Assembly: GCF_900215355.1 (NCBI RefSeq)
Contig: NZ_OBEA01000005.1
Coordinates: forward strand, 1-64,000
Origin: Pseudooceanicola antarcticus
GTDB taxonomy: Bacteria; Pseudomonadota; Alphaproteobacteria; Rhodobacterales; Rhodobacteraceae
Direction: 5' to 3'
Length of the DNA: 64,000 bases
Made by a program: the position numbers and the translations under genes
Part shown: piece after piece, positions 20,249-26,121 of the stretch
How positions within the stretch are numbered: the stretch's first letter is position 1
Layout: each line of letters opens with the position of its first letter
Notes under the pieces: generated by a model
Databases searched by the model: none
What the model saw: the letters and a program-made list of their open reading frames with translations, nothing else
What the model was told of the DNA's origin: nothing

Positions 20249-21460
20249 TCACTCCCCGGAGATCCGATCCGCGTAGCGGATATGGCCCGGCCCCGAGGCG
20301 CGCAGCCCCGGCTCGGGCTCGGCACCGGTCAAGCGGGCATGTTCGACGATGGCGAAACGGTCCGTCATGCCAGAGATGTAGTCGCTGACGATGCGTGCCA
20401 GTTTCAGCTCGTCGCCCTCGATATCTTCGACATCCTTGCGCCATTGCTTGGGCAGCAGGTCGGGGCTTTCCATGAAGAGGGGGAAGAGCTCCAGCACGAT
20501 GCGCGTGACCTTCTTGCGCATCTCGACCACCTCCGGCGCGCGGTACATGCGCTGGAAGAGGAAACCCCGGATCACCTTGAGATCGCTCCAGATATCGGGA
20601 GAGAAGCGCACCATCATGCGCCCCGCCGCGCGCACGTCCTCGACCCGCTCGGGCTTCAGCGCCTCGAGGTTGGCACGGCTCACGTCGATCACGTCGCTGA
20701 CCAGTACGCCAAAGAAACGCCGCAGCGCCTCGTGGCGGCGGCGATAGTAGTTCAGACCGGGATAAAGCCGGTCGACCTCGGCGAAACAGCCCGACAGGAT
20801 CGGCAGTTCGGCCAGCTCATCGGTCGAGAAGAGCTCGGCGCGCAGCCCGTCGTGCAGGTCATGGTTGTTATAGGCAATATCATCCGACAGCGCCGCCACC
20901 TGCGCCTCGGCGCTGGCGTGGGTCGAAAGCTCGAGGTCGTGCAGCCTGTTGTAATCGGCCAGCGCATAGGGGATCTGGCCCACCACCGGGCCATTGTGCT
21001 TGGCAATGCCTTCCAGGGTTTCCCAGGTCAGGTTCAGACCGTCCCACTCGGCATAGGTGCGCTCGAGGTTGGTGACGATGCGGATCGCCTGCGCGTTGTG
21101 ATCAAAACCGCCATAGGGGGCCATCAGCTCGTGCATGGCGTCTTCGCCGGTGTGGCCAAAGGGGGTGTGGCCCAGGTCATGGGCCAGGGCGACGGCCTCG
21201 GTCAGCTCCTGGTTCAGGCCAAGCGCGCCGGCGATGGTCCGCGCCACCTGCCCCACCTCGATGGAATGGGTCAGCCGGGTGCGGAAGTAATCGCCCTCGT
21301 GCTCGATGAAAACCTGGGTCTTGTGCTTAAGCCGCCGGAAGGCAGAGGCGTGGATGATCCGGTCGCGGTCGCGCTGGAAGCACGAGCGGAAGGCGCTTTC
21401 CTCTTCCGGATAAAGACGTCCGCGAGAGCGGAGCGGGTCGGAGGCATAGGGCGCGCGCAT
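20249..21460 (-). CDS. dgt: dGTPase-like dNTP triphosphohydrolase
   Basis: This 403-residue HD-domain protein has RLTHSIEVGQVARTIAGAL (first histidine), VALAHDLGHTPFGHTGEDAM (H-D pair) and DDIAYNNHDLHDGLRAEL (last aspartate), plus FRSCFQRDRDRIIHASAFRRL and KTQVFI. These are the Dgt type-2 subfamily signatures. The enzyme removes triphosphate from dGTP or other dNTPs and helps control nucleotide pools. It is divergent from erpA with 87 bases between the starts, a typical arrangement in this order. Confidence 0.92.
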   Translation of the reverse strand: MRAPYASDPLRSRGRLYPEEESAFRSCFQRDRDRIIHASAFRRLKHKTQVFIEHEGDYFRTRLTHSIEVGQVARTIAGALGLNQELTEAVALAHDLGHTPFGHTGEDAMHELMAPYGGFDHNAQAIRIVTNLERTYAEWDGLNLTWETLEGIAKHNGPVVGQIPYALADYNRLHDLELSTHASAEAQVAALSDDIAYNNHDLHDGLRAELFSTDELAELPILSGCFAEVDRLYPGLNYYRRRHEALRRFFGVLVSDVIDVSRANLEALKPERVEDVRAAGRMMVRFSPDIWSDLKVIRGFLFQRMYRAPEVVEMRKKVTRIVLELFPLFMESPDLLPKQWRKDVEDIEGDELKLARIVSDYISGMTDRFAIVEHARLTGAEPEPGLRASGPGHIRYADRISGE

Positions 21461-21547
21461 GATCAGATCCCTCGGGCTTCTTGTCGCCGTTTCGCCCCTT
21501 CCTTATATTGGAGGCAAGAGACATGCAAAATGTCAGGAGAATTTCCG

Positions 21548-21865
21548 ATGAACCTGCCCCCGAAAGTTACCGATCGCGCCTTTGATCGCCTCTCTGAGAT
21601 CGGCGCGGGCGCCCAGGCCCTGCGCGTCGCCGTCGAAGGTGGCGGCTGCTCGGGCTTCCAGTACGACATCCGCCTGGACGAGCCCGCCGCCGATGACCTG
21701 GTGCTGGAGGGCAAGGGCCAGAAGGTGGTCGTCGACCCGACCTCCCTGCCCTTCCTCGCCGGCGCCGTGATCGACTTCACCGAAGAGCTGATCGGCGCGC
21801 GTTTCGTGATCGAGAACCCGAACGCCACCTCCAGCTGCGGCTGCGGCACCTCCTTCTCGATCTGA
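21548..21865 (+). CDS. erpA: Iron-sulfur cluster insertion protein (HesB/ErpA-type)
   Basis: This 105-residue A-type carrier has the three family cysteines: one in EGGGCSGFQYDI and two in SSCGCGTSFSI at the C-terminus. It delivers Fe-S clusters to apoproteins. The ATG at 21548 is preceded by AGGAGA; an in-frame ATG at 21530 overlaps that site and was rejected. In related genomes exonuclease III often follows closely; here the unusual minus-strand cassette at 21958-24875 lies between them. Confidence 0.93.
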   Translation: MNLPPKVTDRAFDRLSEIGAGAQALRVAVEGGGCSGFQYDIRLDEPAADDLVLEGKGQKVVVDPTSLPFLAGAVIDFTEELIGARFVIENPNATSSCGCGTSFSI

Positions 21866-21957
21866 GCGGGAGGCACGGCCGGGGGCAAGGCCCCCGCCTT
21901 GCGCCAGTGAGCTGCGCGGACACCTCTAGCCATTGAAAAACTGAAGGAAACCGGCGG

Positions 21958-22983
21958 CTATTCCGCCGGGGTGGCAGGCTTGTCTGCCCGCGCCATGGCG
22001 GGTACGGGCTCAAACGCCCGGCTACGCGCCGCCCTGCTGCGCACCACGCCGCCCAGGGCCAGCTGGTCGTAGATCAGGTAGAGCCCCGAACCGATGACGA
22101 TGGCCGAACCGAGGAAGACATTGGCGCTGGTGGTCTCTCCGAAGATCAGCGCGCCGATGATCACCATCCAGACGAATTGCAGGTTCATCAGCGGCGTGAC
22201 GACATAGGCCGCCAGCAGGCGCAGCGCGATGACCAGCACCCAGCGGGCGAAGAAGAGGAAGGCGGCATAGGCGGCGATCCAGGCCAGGTCATGCAGCGCC
22301 ATGGGTCGATAGACGAAGGGCAGCGCCACGGCCATGACAGCCGCCAGCACCACGTTGGGCCAGAAGACCTGCGCCAGGGCATTGCTTTCAAACTGGCCGA
22401 TCCGCCGCGCCATGACCATCGAGAGCGTCCCCGAAGCGGTGGCCCCAAAGGCGATCAGATGCCCGAGCGAGATCGCATGCACCCCGTCGGGGAAGAGGCA
22501 GACCACGCCGACGAAACCGGCGCCCAGGGCGAACCAGACCGCGAGAGAGACCTTCTCTCGCAGGATCGGGCCGGTCATGAGACCGGCGAAGATCGGCATC
22601 AGGCCGATGAAGACGAAGACCTCGGCGAATTCCAGCAGCTTGAAGGCGTAGAAGTAGCAGACCGAGGCGACAACCGTGGCCATCGCCCGCACCGCCATGT
22701 CCCAGGGCCGCGTGGTGCGCACCGCATCCATCACGCCGGAGCCGTTCTTCAGCCATTCCGCGCCAAGACAGAAGCTGGCCACCAGCGTGCCCGACAGCAC
22801 GTAGAGCTGCGGCGCCGCAAAGTTGCCCGAGACAAACTTGGTGATCGCATCCGCCGAAGAGATCAGCGCGGTGTAGAGAAGCACCAGGACGACCCCCGCG
22901 AGGGTCGCCTTGATTGCCAGCTTGTGCTGGGCCCGCTTCGCTTGGGCCATGGGCTTTCGGGCTTTGCCGGTCTTGTCAGTCAC
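21958..22983 (-). CDS. EamA/DMT family transporter
   Basis: This 341-residue protein has ten hydrophobic segments in two EamA repeats, starting LVLLYTALISSADAITKFVS and, for the second half, IAYAAFLFFARWVLVIALRL, with the conserved late motif NLQFVWMVIIGALIFGETTS. DMT proteins export or import small metabolites; the cargo here is unknown. A GTG at 22983, preceded by AGGAGAGG, overlaps the stop of the upstream 376-residue protein by four bases (GTGA), so the two are translationally coupled. The last 35 residues are hydrophilic. Context suggests transport of something made or handled by the two upstream genes. Confidence 0.85.
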   Translation of the reverse strand: MTDKTGKARKPMAQAKRAQHKLAIKATLAGVVLVLLYTALISSADAITKFVSGNFAAPQLYVLSGTLVASFCLGAEWLKNGSGVMDAVRTTRPWDMAVRAMATVVASVCYFYAFKLLEFAEVFVFIGLMPIFAGLMTGPILREKVSLAVWFALGAGFVGVVCLFPDGVHAISLGHLIAFGATASGTLSMVMARRIGQFESNALAQVFWPNVVLAAVMAVALPFVYRPMALHDLAWIAAYAAFLFFARWVLVIALRLLAAYVVTPLMNLQFVWMVIIGALIFGETTSANVFLGSAIVIGSGLYLIYDQLALGGVVRSRAARSRAFEPVPAMARADKPATPAE

Positions 22984-24110
22984 GCGCTGGCCCTCTCCTG
23001 CGACGCGGCGAGGCCCGCGCGGGAGAACCCGGCGAAGAAGGCATCGAAATCCGTACAGGCCTCGGCGGCGCGCGCCAGGTGGCCAATGGCCCAGGGCTCT
23101 GACAGGGCCTCGTGGATCGGGTCCTGCATGCGCTGCCAATCGGCGCTGCGCGCCTCGTCGAGCTGCATCAGGCATTGGGACATCAGGCGCAGGGGGCCTG
23201 CGGGGCGGGGGGCGGAATGGACGGCGACGCGACCTTCTGGAACCACCTGGCGGAAGCTTTCCTGCCCGGCCGTGGCCATGGCCCAGTTGCTCACGAGAAA
23301 CTCGTGGTAGTCGTCATGCCCCATTGCGCCCTCCCAGGCTTCGACGGTGTACCCGCTCGTTTCGCGGTTCAACCAGCTCTCCCAAGCTTCGGGCGGCGTC
23401 ATTCCGGCATAGCGCATTGCCACGCAGATCTCGGCCAACAGGTCCGCATTGAGATCAAGGTACGCGAGGGTTCCCGCAAAGTTAAGGCTCTCTTTTGCCC
23501 TTTGCGTCAATTGCACCGCAAAACGCCCATACTCGCTGAGGTAGAAGACGATGTGGGTCAGTTCGTAGGCAGCTTTCTTGTTTGGAACCATGAAGGTACG
23601 GGGCCGAGAGATGAATTTCGTCAGCCGTTCGGTCAGCGCCTCGCTCTCTGCGGCAGAGCCAGAGGGGTCGAGATCGCGGCGCAACATCAGCCTGCGTGCC
23701 TCTGCCCGTTGCAAATCCGACAGTTCCGCCTCGGCCAGCCCCTGGTCGTAGGCCCAGCGGACCAGCCCTTCGGCCTTGCCGCCCGGCATGCCGAGCGCTT
23801 CGAGGTCCAGCGCGATGGAGAGGAAGAAGCGGTAGTACTGGGGAAAGAAGCCCAGTCTCTTCTCGATGCCATCATAGACGGCCTTATAGGCCTGCAGCGC
23901 CTCTTCGGGCAGCGCGCCGCTGGCGATGGTCTGGCCGGTGCTTTCCAGGATGTTCAGCACCTCGGCGTTTTCCTTTAGCCAGAAGACATCATCGGCAGAG
24001 CGTCTTTCATTGGCAAATCGGTCGAGCAGGGCCGCGCGGCGCGCGGCCCGGCCCTGGCTCCGGGCGGGGAAGGTCAGTTGGACAACGTTCGACTGGACTG
24101 CATGTGTCAT
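22980..24110 (-). CDS. Uncharacterised 376-residue soluble protein partnered with a repeat peptide
   Basis: I do not recognise a function; related rhodobacterial proteins are, as I recall, catalogued as DUF6902, which is unverified. It has no signal peptide or membrane segment and is predicted mostly alpha-helical. Two stretches look conserved and possibly catalytic: AAYELTHIVFYLSEYGRF (about residues 180-197) and AMGHDDYHEFLVSNWAM (about 262-278), the latter with several potential metal ligands. The ATG at 24110 has AAAGGA upstream, which touches the base of a 11-bp-stem hairpin at 24125-24166. It lies downstream of the FTSGSAP-repeat gene and is coupled to the EamA transporter. Confidence 0.7.
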   Translation of the reverse strand: MTHAVQSNVVQLTFPARSQGRAARRAALLDRFANERRSADDVFWLKENAEVLNILESTGQTIASGALPEEALQAYKAVYDGIEKRLGFFPQYYRFFLSIALDLEALGMPGGKAEGLVRWAYDQGLAEAELSDLQRAEARRLMLRRDLDPSGSAAESEALTERLTKFISRPRTFMVPNKKAAYELTHIVFYLSEYGRFAVQLTQRAKESLNFAGTLAYLDLNADLLAEICVAMRYAGMTPPEAWESWLNRETSGYTVEAWEGAMGHDDYHEFLVSNWAMATAGQESFRQVVPEGRVAVHSAPRPAGPLRLMSQCLMQLDEARSADWQRMQDPIHEALSEPWAIGHLARAAEACTDFDAFFAGFSRAGLAASQERASA

Positions 24111-24124
24111 GGGTCAGGTTCCTT

Positions 24125-24166
24125 TCCGTCTGATCGTCGGCCCCGGAGGGGGCGAGATCAGACGGA
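24125..24166 (-). promoter_or_regulatory. Intra-operon hairpin next to a ribosome-binding site
   Basis: TCCGTCTGATC at 24125-24135 pairs perfectly with GATCAGACGGA at 24156-24166, and inside the loop GCCCC can pair with GGGGC. It lies between the repeat-protein gene and the 376-residue gene and ends one base into the latter's AAAGGA ribosome site. No T-run follows on the minus strand. It could protect the upstream mRNA or reduce downstream translation. Confidence 0.65.
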
Positions 24167-24224
24167 AGGCGTCCTTTCACACTCCCCTGCCCGGTCCGGG
24201 CAAGTTTGCTCGGTCTGGAGCGGG

Positions 24225-24875
24225 TCAGCTGCCCGAGGTGAAGGCCTGGACCTGGTCACCGGCGGAGGCGTCGGAGGCCACCGGTGCGGAACCCGAAGTG
24301 AACATCTCGACCGCATCGCCTGCGGAGGCGTCGGAAGTCAGCGGGGCGGAGCCCGAGGTGAACATCTCGACCGCATCGCCGGTGGAGGCGTCCGAGGTCA
24401 GCGGAGCGGAACCCGAGGTGAACATCTCGACCGCATCGCCGGTGGAAGCGTCGGATGTCAGCGGCGCGGAGCCAGAGGTGAACATCTCGACCGCATCGCC
24501 GGTGGAGGCGTCCGAGGCCAGCGGGGCGGAACCCGAGGTGAACAGCTCGACCGCATCGCCGGTGGAGGCGTCCGAGGTCAGCGGGGCGGAACCCGAGGTG
24601 AACAGCTGGATCGCATCACCCGCCATGGTGTCGAAGCTCATCGGCGCCGAGCCGGAGGTGAACATTTCGACCGCGTCGCCTGCCATGGCAGTGGCAGCGC
24701 GCAGCGGTGCGGAACCCGAGGTGAAAAGGCCCAGGGCCTCGCCGCCCATCAGGTCACCTTCTGCACGGGGCGCGGAGCCCGAGGTGAACATCTCGGTGGC
24801 GTCACCATTCAGCATGGTTTCGGCAGCATCTGCGATAAGGCTTGCGGATTGGGTGGCTTTGCGGATAGCAGACAT
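24225..24875 (-). CDS. FTSGSAP tandem-repeat protein (candidate multicore precursor)
   Basis: This 216-residue acidic protein begins with a 29-residue leader-like segment (MSAIRKATQSASLIADAAET and MLNGDATEM) and then consists of eleven repeats: ten FTSGSAP and a final FTSGS at the very C-terminus. The consensus unit is GDAVEM-FTSGSAP-LTSDAST, 20 residues or 60 bases. The central copies (4-9) are nearly identical, the first three have divergent spacers. There is no signal peptide, cysteine or membrane segment. The ATG at 24875 has GGAG upstream; an in-frame TTG four codons earlier overlaps that site. Precursor, adhesin-like and structural roles all remain possible. Confidence 0.8.
   Translation of the reverse strand: MSAIRKATQSASLIADAAETMLNGDATEMFTSGSAPRAEGDLMGGEALGLFTSGSAPLRAATAMAGDAVEMFTSGSAPMSFDTMAGDAIQLFTSGSAPLTSDASTGDAVELFTSGSAPLASDASTGDAVEMFTSGSAPLTSDASTGDAVEMFTSGSAPLTSDASTGDAVEMFTSGSAPLTSDASAGDAVEMFTSGSAPVASDASAGDQVQAFTSGS
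24229..24800 (-). repeat. 60-bp in-frame tandem repeat array
   Basis: The coding strand repeats with a strict 60-base period over about nine units, and with slightly different spacing in the first copies. The plus-strand form of the core contains GAGGTGAACATCTCGACCGC. Period and divergence pattern fit unit duplication in the middle of the gene. Because 60 is divisible by three, long artificial open frames also appear on the other strand. Confidence 0.9.
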
Positions 24876-25311
24876 CGGAATCTCCAAGTCGTTGAAAAGA
24901 AAGGACGAGTGCCATCACGCTTGCACGGCGGAATGGAGCTGAAAACCAGATTTTCAATTTTTCCGTGTCAAGATTAAGTTATTCACAATAACTTTTATCG
25001 GCAAGATATTGTTTCCGTGTAAACAAGAATAACTTGCCAAAAATTTCACAGGCACCATTCAGAGGGGAATGGAATCTGGAACATTTCACGAACGCAAAAG
25101 AGATTCGCGCGCCCTGTCGCGGAATCATGGCGAATCGTGAAACTTGCACTCGGAACTCGACGCCCGTCTGGACAGCGAAGGCCGGAACGCCGAAAAGCCT
25201 TGCAGGACGGGATGCACGGGCTGGACTTGCCAAGTCAGGCGAAGTCTTGCTGGCGCATATCCCTCAGAGTTGCGCTTTCGCGATGCGATGAAAAGAAAAA
25301 AGGGGTTCCCC
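24876..25311. promoter_or_regulatory. AT-rich divergent regulatory region with AATAACTT dyads
   Basis: This 436-base gap separates the repeat-protein gene (minus) from xth (plus). About 24940-25060 is markedly AT-rich compared with the rest of the window. AAGTTATT at 24976-24983 and AATAACTT at 24987-24994 form a dyad, and AATAACTT recurs at 25028-25035, 41 bases after the second copy. These look like operator half-sites for a regulator. The part nearer xth (25060-25311) shows no supported gene. Confidence 0.5.
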
Positions 25312-26121
25312 ATGAAGCTGGCCACGTTCAACATCAACGGCATCAAGGCACGCATCCAGGCGCTCAGTGACTGGCTGGACGAGGCACAGCCCGACGTGGC
25401 GGTGCTGCAAGAGATCAAGTCGGTGGACGAGGCCTTTCCGCGTGAGCTCTTCGAGGAGAAGGGCTACCAGGTGGAAACCCACGGCCAGAAGAGCTTCAAC
25501 GGCGTGGCGATCCTGTCGAAGCTGCCGCTGGAGGACATCCGCCGCGGCCTGCCGGGCGATGACGGCGACGAACAGGCGCGCTGGATCGAGGCCACTGTGG
25601 TGGGCGAGAAGAACGCGCTCAGGATCTGCGGGCTCTATCTGCCCAATGGCAACCCGGTCGAGCTGGACGAGGCCGGGCGCCCGGTCGAGGGTGGCAAGTA
25701 TGCCTACAAGCTGGCCTGGATGGAGCGCCTGAAGACCCGCGCCGAAGAGCTGCTGGCCACCGAAGAGCCCTCGGTCATGCTGGGCGATTACAACATCATC
25801 CCCCAGGCCCAGGACGCGGCCAATCCGAAGAAGTGGGAGGGCGATGCGCTTTATCGCCCTGAAAGCCGCGCCGCCTGGCAGCGCATCGTCAACCTGGGCT
25901 TCACCGAGATCTTCCGCACCCGCCACGCGGCGCCGGGGCATTACACCTTCTGGGATTACCAGGCCGGGGCCTGGCAGAAGAACGACGGTATCCGCATCGA
26001 CCACATGCTGATGAGCCCGCAATGCGCCGACCTGGTCGAGGATTGCGGCATCGACGCCGGTATCCGGGGCCGTGAGAAGCCCTCGGACCACGTGCCGCTA
26101 TGGGCAGAGATCGCCCTGTGA
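25312..26121 (+). CDS. xth: Exodeoxyribonuclease III
   Basis: This 269-residue enzyme has the ExoIII/APE fold signatures: KLATFNINGIKARIQAL, VAVLQEIKSVDEAFP with the catalytic glutamate, LPNGNPVE, MLGDYNIIPQAQDA and the final DGIRIDHMLMS and SDHVPLWAEI with the catalytic D-H pair. It acts at abasic sites and as a 3'-5' exonuclease in base-excision repair. The frame is open upstream but MKLATFNING at 25312 is the canonical start. Its 3' end overlaps the convergent flavin monooxygenase gene by 24 bases. Confidence 0.94.
   Translation: MKLATFNINGIKARIQALSDWLDEAQPDVAVLQEIKSVDEAFPRELFEEKGYQVETHGQKSFNGVAILSKLPLEDIRRGLPGDDGDEQARWIEATVVGEKNALRICGLYLPNGNPVELDEAGRPVEGGKYAYKLAWMERLKTRAEELLATEEPSVMLGDYNIIPQAQDAANPKKWEGDALYRPESRAAWQRIVNLGFTEIFRTRHAAPGHYTFWDYQAGAWQKNDGIRIDHMLMSPQCADLVEDCGIDAGIRGREKPSDHVPLWAEIAL

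Follow-up and report, generated by a model that had tools for sequence, protein, structure and literature searches.

The window analysed here, 64,000 nucleotides of contig NZ_OBEA01000005.1 of Pseudooceanicola antarcticus, carries on its minus strand a cassette of three genes encoding a repeat protein, a 376-residue protein of the Pfam family DUF6902 and an EamA-family transporter (Table 1). The original prediction, made from the sequence of the window, had described the same three open reading frames (ORFs) in the same order, with the last two coupled by a GTGA overlap, all of which was borne out. Comparison with related genomes revealed that this is a conserved system and not one odd cassette, and the module looks like an undescribed route to modified peptides, with a repeated motif that changes by species in all copies at once.

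Table 1. Features of the cassette (positions in the window).
Feature	Position	Strand	Remarks
Repeat (precursor-like) protein gene	24225..24875	-	216 residues plus stop, ten FTSGS, C-terminal end ..FTSGS
Leader-like N-terminus, 29 residues ahead of first motif	24789..24875	-	putative leader function
Repeat region, ten FTSGS at 20-21 residue spacing	24228..24788	-	
RNA hairpin between repeat gene and DUF6902 gene	24121..24170	-	
DUF6902 gene, 376 residues	22980..24110	-	alpha/alpha toroid by prediction; candidate for a peptide epimerase or another peptide-modifying enzyme
EamA-family transporter gene	21958..22983	-	start overlaps DUF6902 stop by GTGA (22983-22980)

In the repeat protein 29 residues precede the first motif phenylalanine, as predicted, and the motif itself occurs in ten exact copies, with spacings of 21, 21 and then seven times 20 residues, in place of the eleven copies at a constant 20 residues claimed earlier; the chain stops at the last FTSGS. 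Tandem Repeats Finder detected the corresponding 60-bp period in the gene, and the repeats are beyond chance. No Pfam or NCBIfam family was found above cut-off for the protein, nor any Pfam family for five of its relatives. Homologous regions were collected as 80 named loci, the best 80 of 305 confirmed stretches, and motif statistics were computed on 79 of their repeat proteins with Ser, Thr or Cys demanded at motif position 3, which makes them uninformative on that position. The copy number in these 79 proteins ranges from 3 to 20 (median 8), and an MxAxxK start is present in 62. In 67 the last motif residue is also the C-terminal residue, whichever motif it is, and in 491 of 563 cases the second residue behind the motif is a proline; such C-termini, together with the proline, would fit cutting after the motif. 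Spacings of 8 residues were counted 26 times among the named proteins, and some divergent repeat proteins have two copies only (for example, those of L114, L125 and L127).

The 376-residue protein, which had been described as uncharacterised, already belongs to a named family of unknown function, DUF6902 (PF21843; E 3.5e-147, 490 bits versus a cut-off of 27, residues 7-365). It also matches DUF6895 (E 1e-21, 78 bits versus a cut-off of 23.8), and hhalign of DUF6902 against 11 DUF6895 proteins gave a probability of 97.5 and an E-value of 5e-12; at the level of their sequences, the two families are demonstrably of common descent. Seven residues, namely Tyr182, His186, Gly195, Asp223, Glu227, Tyr268 and His269, do not vary among 44 chosen DUF6902 proteins, nor do their counterparts among 11 chosen DUF6895 proteins. 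The DUF6902 alignment (A1) consists of the window protein and 43 of the 80 named loci; L076 and L107 were dropped owing to stop codons in the range, L091 and L096 were left out at the same time, and the remainder were not chosen, while alignment A5 leaves out L050, L052 and L056. The AlphaFold model of DUF6902 is all-helical apart from two short strands, with a predicted local distance difference test score (pLDDT) of 92.1. VIA-align placed residues 19-296 among alpha/alpha toroids, with squalene-hopene cyclase at Z 12.2 (4.2 A over 236 residues) and protein farnesyltransferase at Z 11.5, values in the range that the tool calls common for helical models. Foldseek returned no match to the model at E 0.001 or below, and the best match of the DUF6902 profile to solved chains was an unconvincing E 0.69.

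The distribution of the module was examined in 295 genomes of the bacterial family of the window, Rhodobacteraceae, nearly one per genus. DUF6902 was found in 82 of them and in none of 14 control genomes. A repeat-protein profile built from exact sequences matched 72 of the 295 genomes and an earlier one with hand-typed rows matched 74, every match lying among the 82 genomes with DUF6902. The orphan repeat proteins that, according to the original prediction, would argue against a functional pairing were not encountered in any of the 213 genomes lacking DUF6902 (list comparison with both profiles), although these profiles were built from genes beside DUF6902 and very different orphans would escape them; as to the transporter, which the same argument had included, EamA proved merely optional. 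Eight DUF6902 genomes were missed by the earlier profile: five with divergent repeats of the YIAGL, MMCCS, MMSCS, SPSCA and SSTC types, one with a gene fragment at a contig end (G139), and G039 and G288, which are considered below. Two further genomes missed by the later profile, G075 and G174, show short repeat ORFs. A script placed the repeat gene directly upstream of DUF6902 and on the same strand in 79 of the 80 named loci, and in the remaining one, L109, three repeats lie ahead of a masked stretch. The layout regarded as RiPP-like (of ribosomally synthesized and post-translationally modified peptides), in which a putative modifying enzyme is encoded next to a precursor-like protein with leader and core, was scored in 79 of 80 named loci, and in 72 of 82 genomes with DUF6902 versus 0 of 213 without. 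Apparent second precursor genes in G027, G053 and G250 were rejected because they are repeat pieces at contig ends beside Xth-like ORFs, as in arrays split between contigs. Near EamA-like ORFs (labelled by eye) in L174 and L175 lie divergent DUF6902-like genes, with upstream short ORFs that carry either two copies of MAQSFSAP, which close the protein, or four of MTSVA.

The third protein was identified as EamA, as predicted, by a profile match in two stretches (48.1 bits versus a cut-off of 28.2, E 1.8e-12). The gene is present in 70 and absent in 9 of the 79 named loci with enough sequence, L044 being scored as present though the script put its EamA in a longer overlapping frame; among 20 more divergent loci it is present in 10 and absent in the other 10. 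In 26 genomes without DUF6902, 19 of them with xth at that place, no EamA was found within 1.5 kb of erpA. These counts indicate that EamA tends to be gained and lost together with the module, yet is optional, and the view of the exporter as an integral part of the cassette had to be given up.

The motif varies by species (FSSGS, FTSSL, FTSWS, FASGS and others), whereas copies inside one gene are nearly all identical. On a quick tree of 80 DUF6902 rows, which leaves out L047, 19 motif types require at least 26 changes. In 73 named loci the motif codons show 5269 synonymous versus 132 non-synonymous pairwise differences, the latter biased down by counting copies with at most one mismatch to the commonest motif, and the spacers show 2201 versus 11214, a figure inflated by small indels since spacer columns were taken at fixed offsets; the other 7 of the 80 loci gave no value. 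For the ten copies of the window the motif values are 68 and 0, and the spacer values 27 and 139; the zero is by construction, because copies were picked by exact motif match, and the informative number is 68. Since motif codons differ synonymously and spacers diverge, the uniformity within genes is not one of simple recent duplication. Between L043 and L055, whose DUF6902 proteins differ at 27 of 376 alignment columns (gaps included) and whose spacers are orthologous, with the same unusual ones, motif position 2 is Thr in every copy of the former (codons ACG and ACT) and Ser in every copy of the latter (TCC, TCG, TCT and TCA). From the mainly synonymous codon variation and this all-copy switch, selection seems to act copy by copy, with the same motif favoured in all. 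Contrary to the usual uniformity, two motifs are mixed in one chain in L084, L137, L142, L147 and L157 (e.g., FTSGSAP with FTTSAEA, or FSSGS with STSC).

The sister family provides the only functional lead: one DUF6895 (PF21836) protein is called a lasso-peptide epimerase in the title of a paper (Shi et al., ACS Catal. 2026, doi 10.1021/acscatal.5c08590) that appears in the reference list of PMC13352647. Because DUF6902 is related to this family, epimerisation is the most likely reaction, and DUF6902 is a putative peptide epimerase. The likely chemistry may not be new, contrary to what had been expected at the outset. Thirteen DUF6895 loci with a recognisable enzyme were examined (L169-L172 and L183-L191), and in nine of them a short precursor-like ORF lies directly ahead of the enzyme: L169, L170, L171, L172 (where the enzyme frame is cut short) and L190, all in other Pseudomonadota, and L183, L184, L185 and L189, on plasmids of Kitasatospora, Pseudalkalibacillus and Streptomyces. 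Three further loci with weak matches (L173, L176 and L177) show no DUF6895 gene. Several of the short ORFs end in stretches like GELVGNWYVL, GSLVGPWFVL, GDKVADWTFVS or EELGWWAVV. By eye, GDKVADWTFVS and GELVGNWYVL resemble the DUF6902-side repeats GDAVEMFTSGS and GELVQMFSSGS, a likeness that suggests a recognition stretch common to DUF6895 precursors and DUF6902 repeats. The DUF6895 precursor-like ORFs, of about 60-160 residues and several with aromatic endings (GPWFVL, NWYVL), occur in several Pseudomonadota as well as in Actinomycetota and Bacillota; this distribution suggests that DUF6895 belongs to a larger group of peptide systems on which little has been written. On two Streptomyces plasmids DUF6895 genes occur as adjacent pairs (L186, 4718-6603; L188, 4517-6798), the L186 pair with a 62-residue ORF ahead of it and a cytochrome P450 nearby; such a pair is possibly a two-subunit enzyme.

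Taken together, we consider that there is an even chance that the cassette is a multicore RiPP-like precursor-enzyme module of Rhodobacteraceae, in which DUF6902 modifies every copy of the motif, most likely by epimerising it. In such a module a leader-bearing repeat protein would be made, consisting in the window of the 29-residue leader and ten cores; each core would be a pentapeptide, FTSGS, preceded by the recognition stretch G-[DE]-x-[VT]-x-x. As a soluble helical toroid with the conserved residues His186, His269, Asp223, Glu227, Tyr182 and Tyr268, DUF6902 would recognise every G-[DE]-x-[VT]-x-x-F stretch and modify the motif there. The reaction would most likely turn one residue, within the motif or next to it, from the L- into the D-form; a host protease would then cut behind the motif, and the product would be exported through EamA where the gene is present. 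The multicore RiPP-like layout of the original prediction fits the tests run as far as repeated cores behind a leader, beside one modifying-type protein, are concerned; an obligatory exporter does not. A more far-reaching version, which we put forward tentatively and with odds well short of even, is that these are undescribed Rhodobacteraceae multicore peptides in which one toroid enzyme introduces a D-residue into every copy, 2 to 20 in number, of a species-specific pentapeptide; the pentapeptide would serve as a species-specific signal or self-marker, and all copies would therefore have to switch together.

Several observations weigh against the precursor-enzyme reading. None of the three cassette proteins matched a known RiPP enzyme or RiPP recognition element (RRE) family in Pfam or NCBIfam, with no dedicated RRE search made, and no protease was recognised among them with the same databases; RREs are easily missed by such profiles. 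No repeat protein was seen in the DUF6902 genomes G039 (L112) and G288 (L128), possibly owing to a decaying locus or to a precursor encoded elsewhere. In 12 of the 79 repeat proteins a tail of 3-9 residues extends beyond the last motif. Four of the 13 DUF6895 loci have no short ORF directly in front or too short an upstream reach: in L186 (Streptomyces) a short ORF and one more gene precede the two DUF6895 genes, in L188 (Streptomyces), also with two DUF6895 genes, the upstream stretch examined is too short to show a precursor ORF, in L187 (Cupriavidus) ORFs of 125 and 164 residues lie ahead of DUF6895, and in L191 none was seen. Nor does any DUF6902 position covary with the motif in independent pairs, in a test of little power. 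Among the six best classes of each test, the best residues were 272 for motif position 2 (phi 0.56, 7 independent pairs, not significant) and 142 for position 5 (phi 0.74, 5 pairs); being indistinguishable from shared ancestry, these candidates were rejected. Thr215 of DUF6902 is found in 9 of 9 rows with Trp at motif position 4 (SWS types) and in 0 of 71 without, a link that may reflect either ancestry or a change of specificity because the nine form one clade, with one origin. The last two points of this kind, the third motif residue, which is nearly always Ser, Thr or Cys though an epimerase would not need such a residue, and the AlphaFold model of the repeat protein, a beta-solenoid with two strands per 20 residues, lead directly to other explanations.

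The third residue could be the site of a different DUF6902 chemistry on the same precursor (dehydration, heterocyclisation, acylation or prenylation) taking place inside the toroid. Recurring C-terminal 5-mers of the named loci keep Ser, Thr or Cys there in a listing made without that requirement, and the aligned folds include the two toroid enzymes named above, although at Z values common for helical models. The divergent motif YIAGL of L114 has Ala at this position, and the sole function seen for a relative, from the title of Shi et al., is epimerisation; we regard this alternative as rather unlikely. The solenoid model would instead make the repeat protein a structural one, a beta-solenoid or functional amyloid with side-chain ladders, and DUF6902 its chaperone or assembly factor. 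Ladder stacking would favour an identical residue in each copy, and purifying selection on the copies would fit as well, but the model, built from 5 sequences, reaches a pLDDT of just 58.7, the 8-residue spacings break the 20-residue register, proteins with two copies exist, most chains end where the motif ends, and in the precursor-like ORFs next to DUF6895 stretches of this kind number one or two, all of which renders a structural role distinctly improbable. Least probable of all, and in our opinion very doubtful, is a multivalent scaffold or regulator in which DUF6902 binds the motif as a tag and no covalent change takes place: the near-exact motif homogeneity per gene and the tight pairing would be expected of a tag with its reader, yet the seven invariant residues, two His, Asp and Glu among them, are common to a family with an enzyme reported, at least by title, and relatives as close as L043 and L055 use FTSGS and FSSGS, respectively. 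A phage or plasmid origin and a defence role were also considered and rejected, as no DUF6902 relative was confirmed in viral contigs, plasmids gave no match, and PADLOC gave none for the three proteins; in PHROG, the repeat and EamA proteins match unnamed families only.

The usual order of the locus in relatives, at one place in most of them, is xth - repeat gene - DUF6902 - (EamA) - erpA - dgt; the corresponding neighbours in the window match the Exo_endo_phos, Fe-S_biosyn and HD families. In the window, five genes flanking the cassette match the Exo_endo_phos, FAD_binding_3, Fe-S_biosyn, HD and arginyl-tRNA synthetase families. The hairpin between the repeat and DUF6902 genes is very stable (z -4.5 for 24111-24240) and might control the dose of substrate over enzyme; it is not general, as z falls below -2 in 8 of 53 relatives (40 shuffles each), and Rfam gave no match up to E 1 within window positions 21000-26000. 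Hairpins followed by T runs, attenuator-like, occur in L120 and L123.

No description of DUF6902, FTSGSAP or this system was found in the literature searched, which mostly did not cover subscription papers, and DUF6895 was found there only within the reference list of PMC13352647. We regard the finding as genuine, and the system would be one of RiPP kind if modification is shown. If the proposed module is real, about a quarter of the sampled family genomes (82 of 295) make a peptide product for which that literature held no description, and DUF6895-type peptide epimerases would be extended to many-core precursors. Motif switches in all copies between close relatives would moreover constitute a natural experiment, from which the specificity of enzyme or receptor could be read by precursor swaps.

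Among known systems, curli-type amyloids have repeats of about 20 residues with two predicted strands each and in this resemble the window repeat protein, but the cassette repeats are variably spaced and go down to two copies, and the flanking genes match other families. Multicore RiPP precursors, such as those of graspetides and fungal repeat RiPPs, carry a leader and then repeated cores in one precursor, as in the window. Graspetides use ATP-grasp ligases (PMC8939145), whereas no ATP-grasp match was found in the three cassette proteins. MslH, of the lasso peptide MS-271, is a peptide epimerase that acts with two His/Asp pairs on the C-terminal residue of a ribosomal precursor and has a calcineurin-like fold with Ca(II) (PMC10406935). 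The two His and the acidic residues of DUF6902 recall the two-base mechanism of MslH, an analogy at most, as DUF6902 is predicted to be all-helical and is unrelated to that enzyme. The closest counterpart is the DUF6895 lasso-peptide epimerase, a member of a homologous family sharing the Y-x3-H, D-x3-E and YH motifs and having, in most of the loci examined, a precursor-like ORF ahead of the enzyme. A lasso system is not indicated here, because the whole genome of the window gave no match to PF13471, the family that marks lasso peptidases. From its DUF6895 counterpart the present system differs in that DUF6902 forms a Pfam family of its own, encountered in this analysis solely in the bacterial family of the window, and in that its putative precursor carries many copies of the motif.

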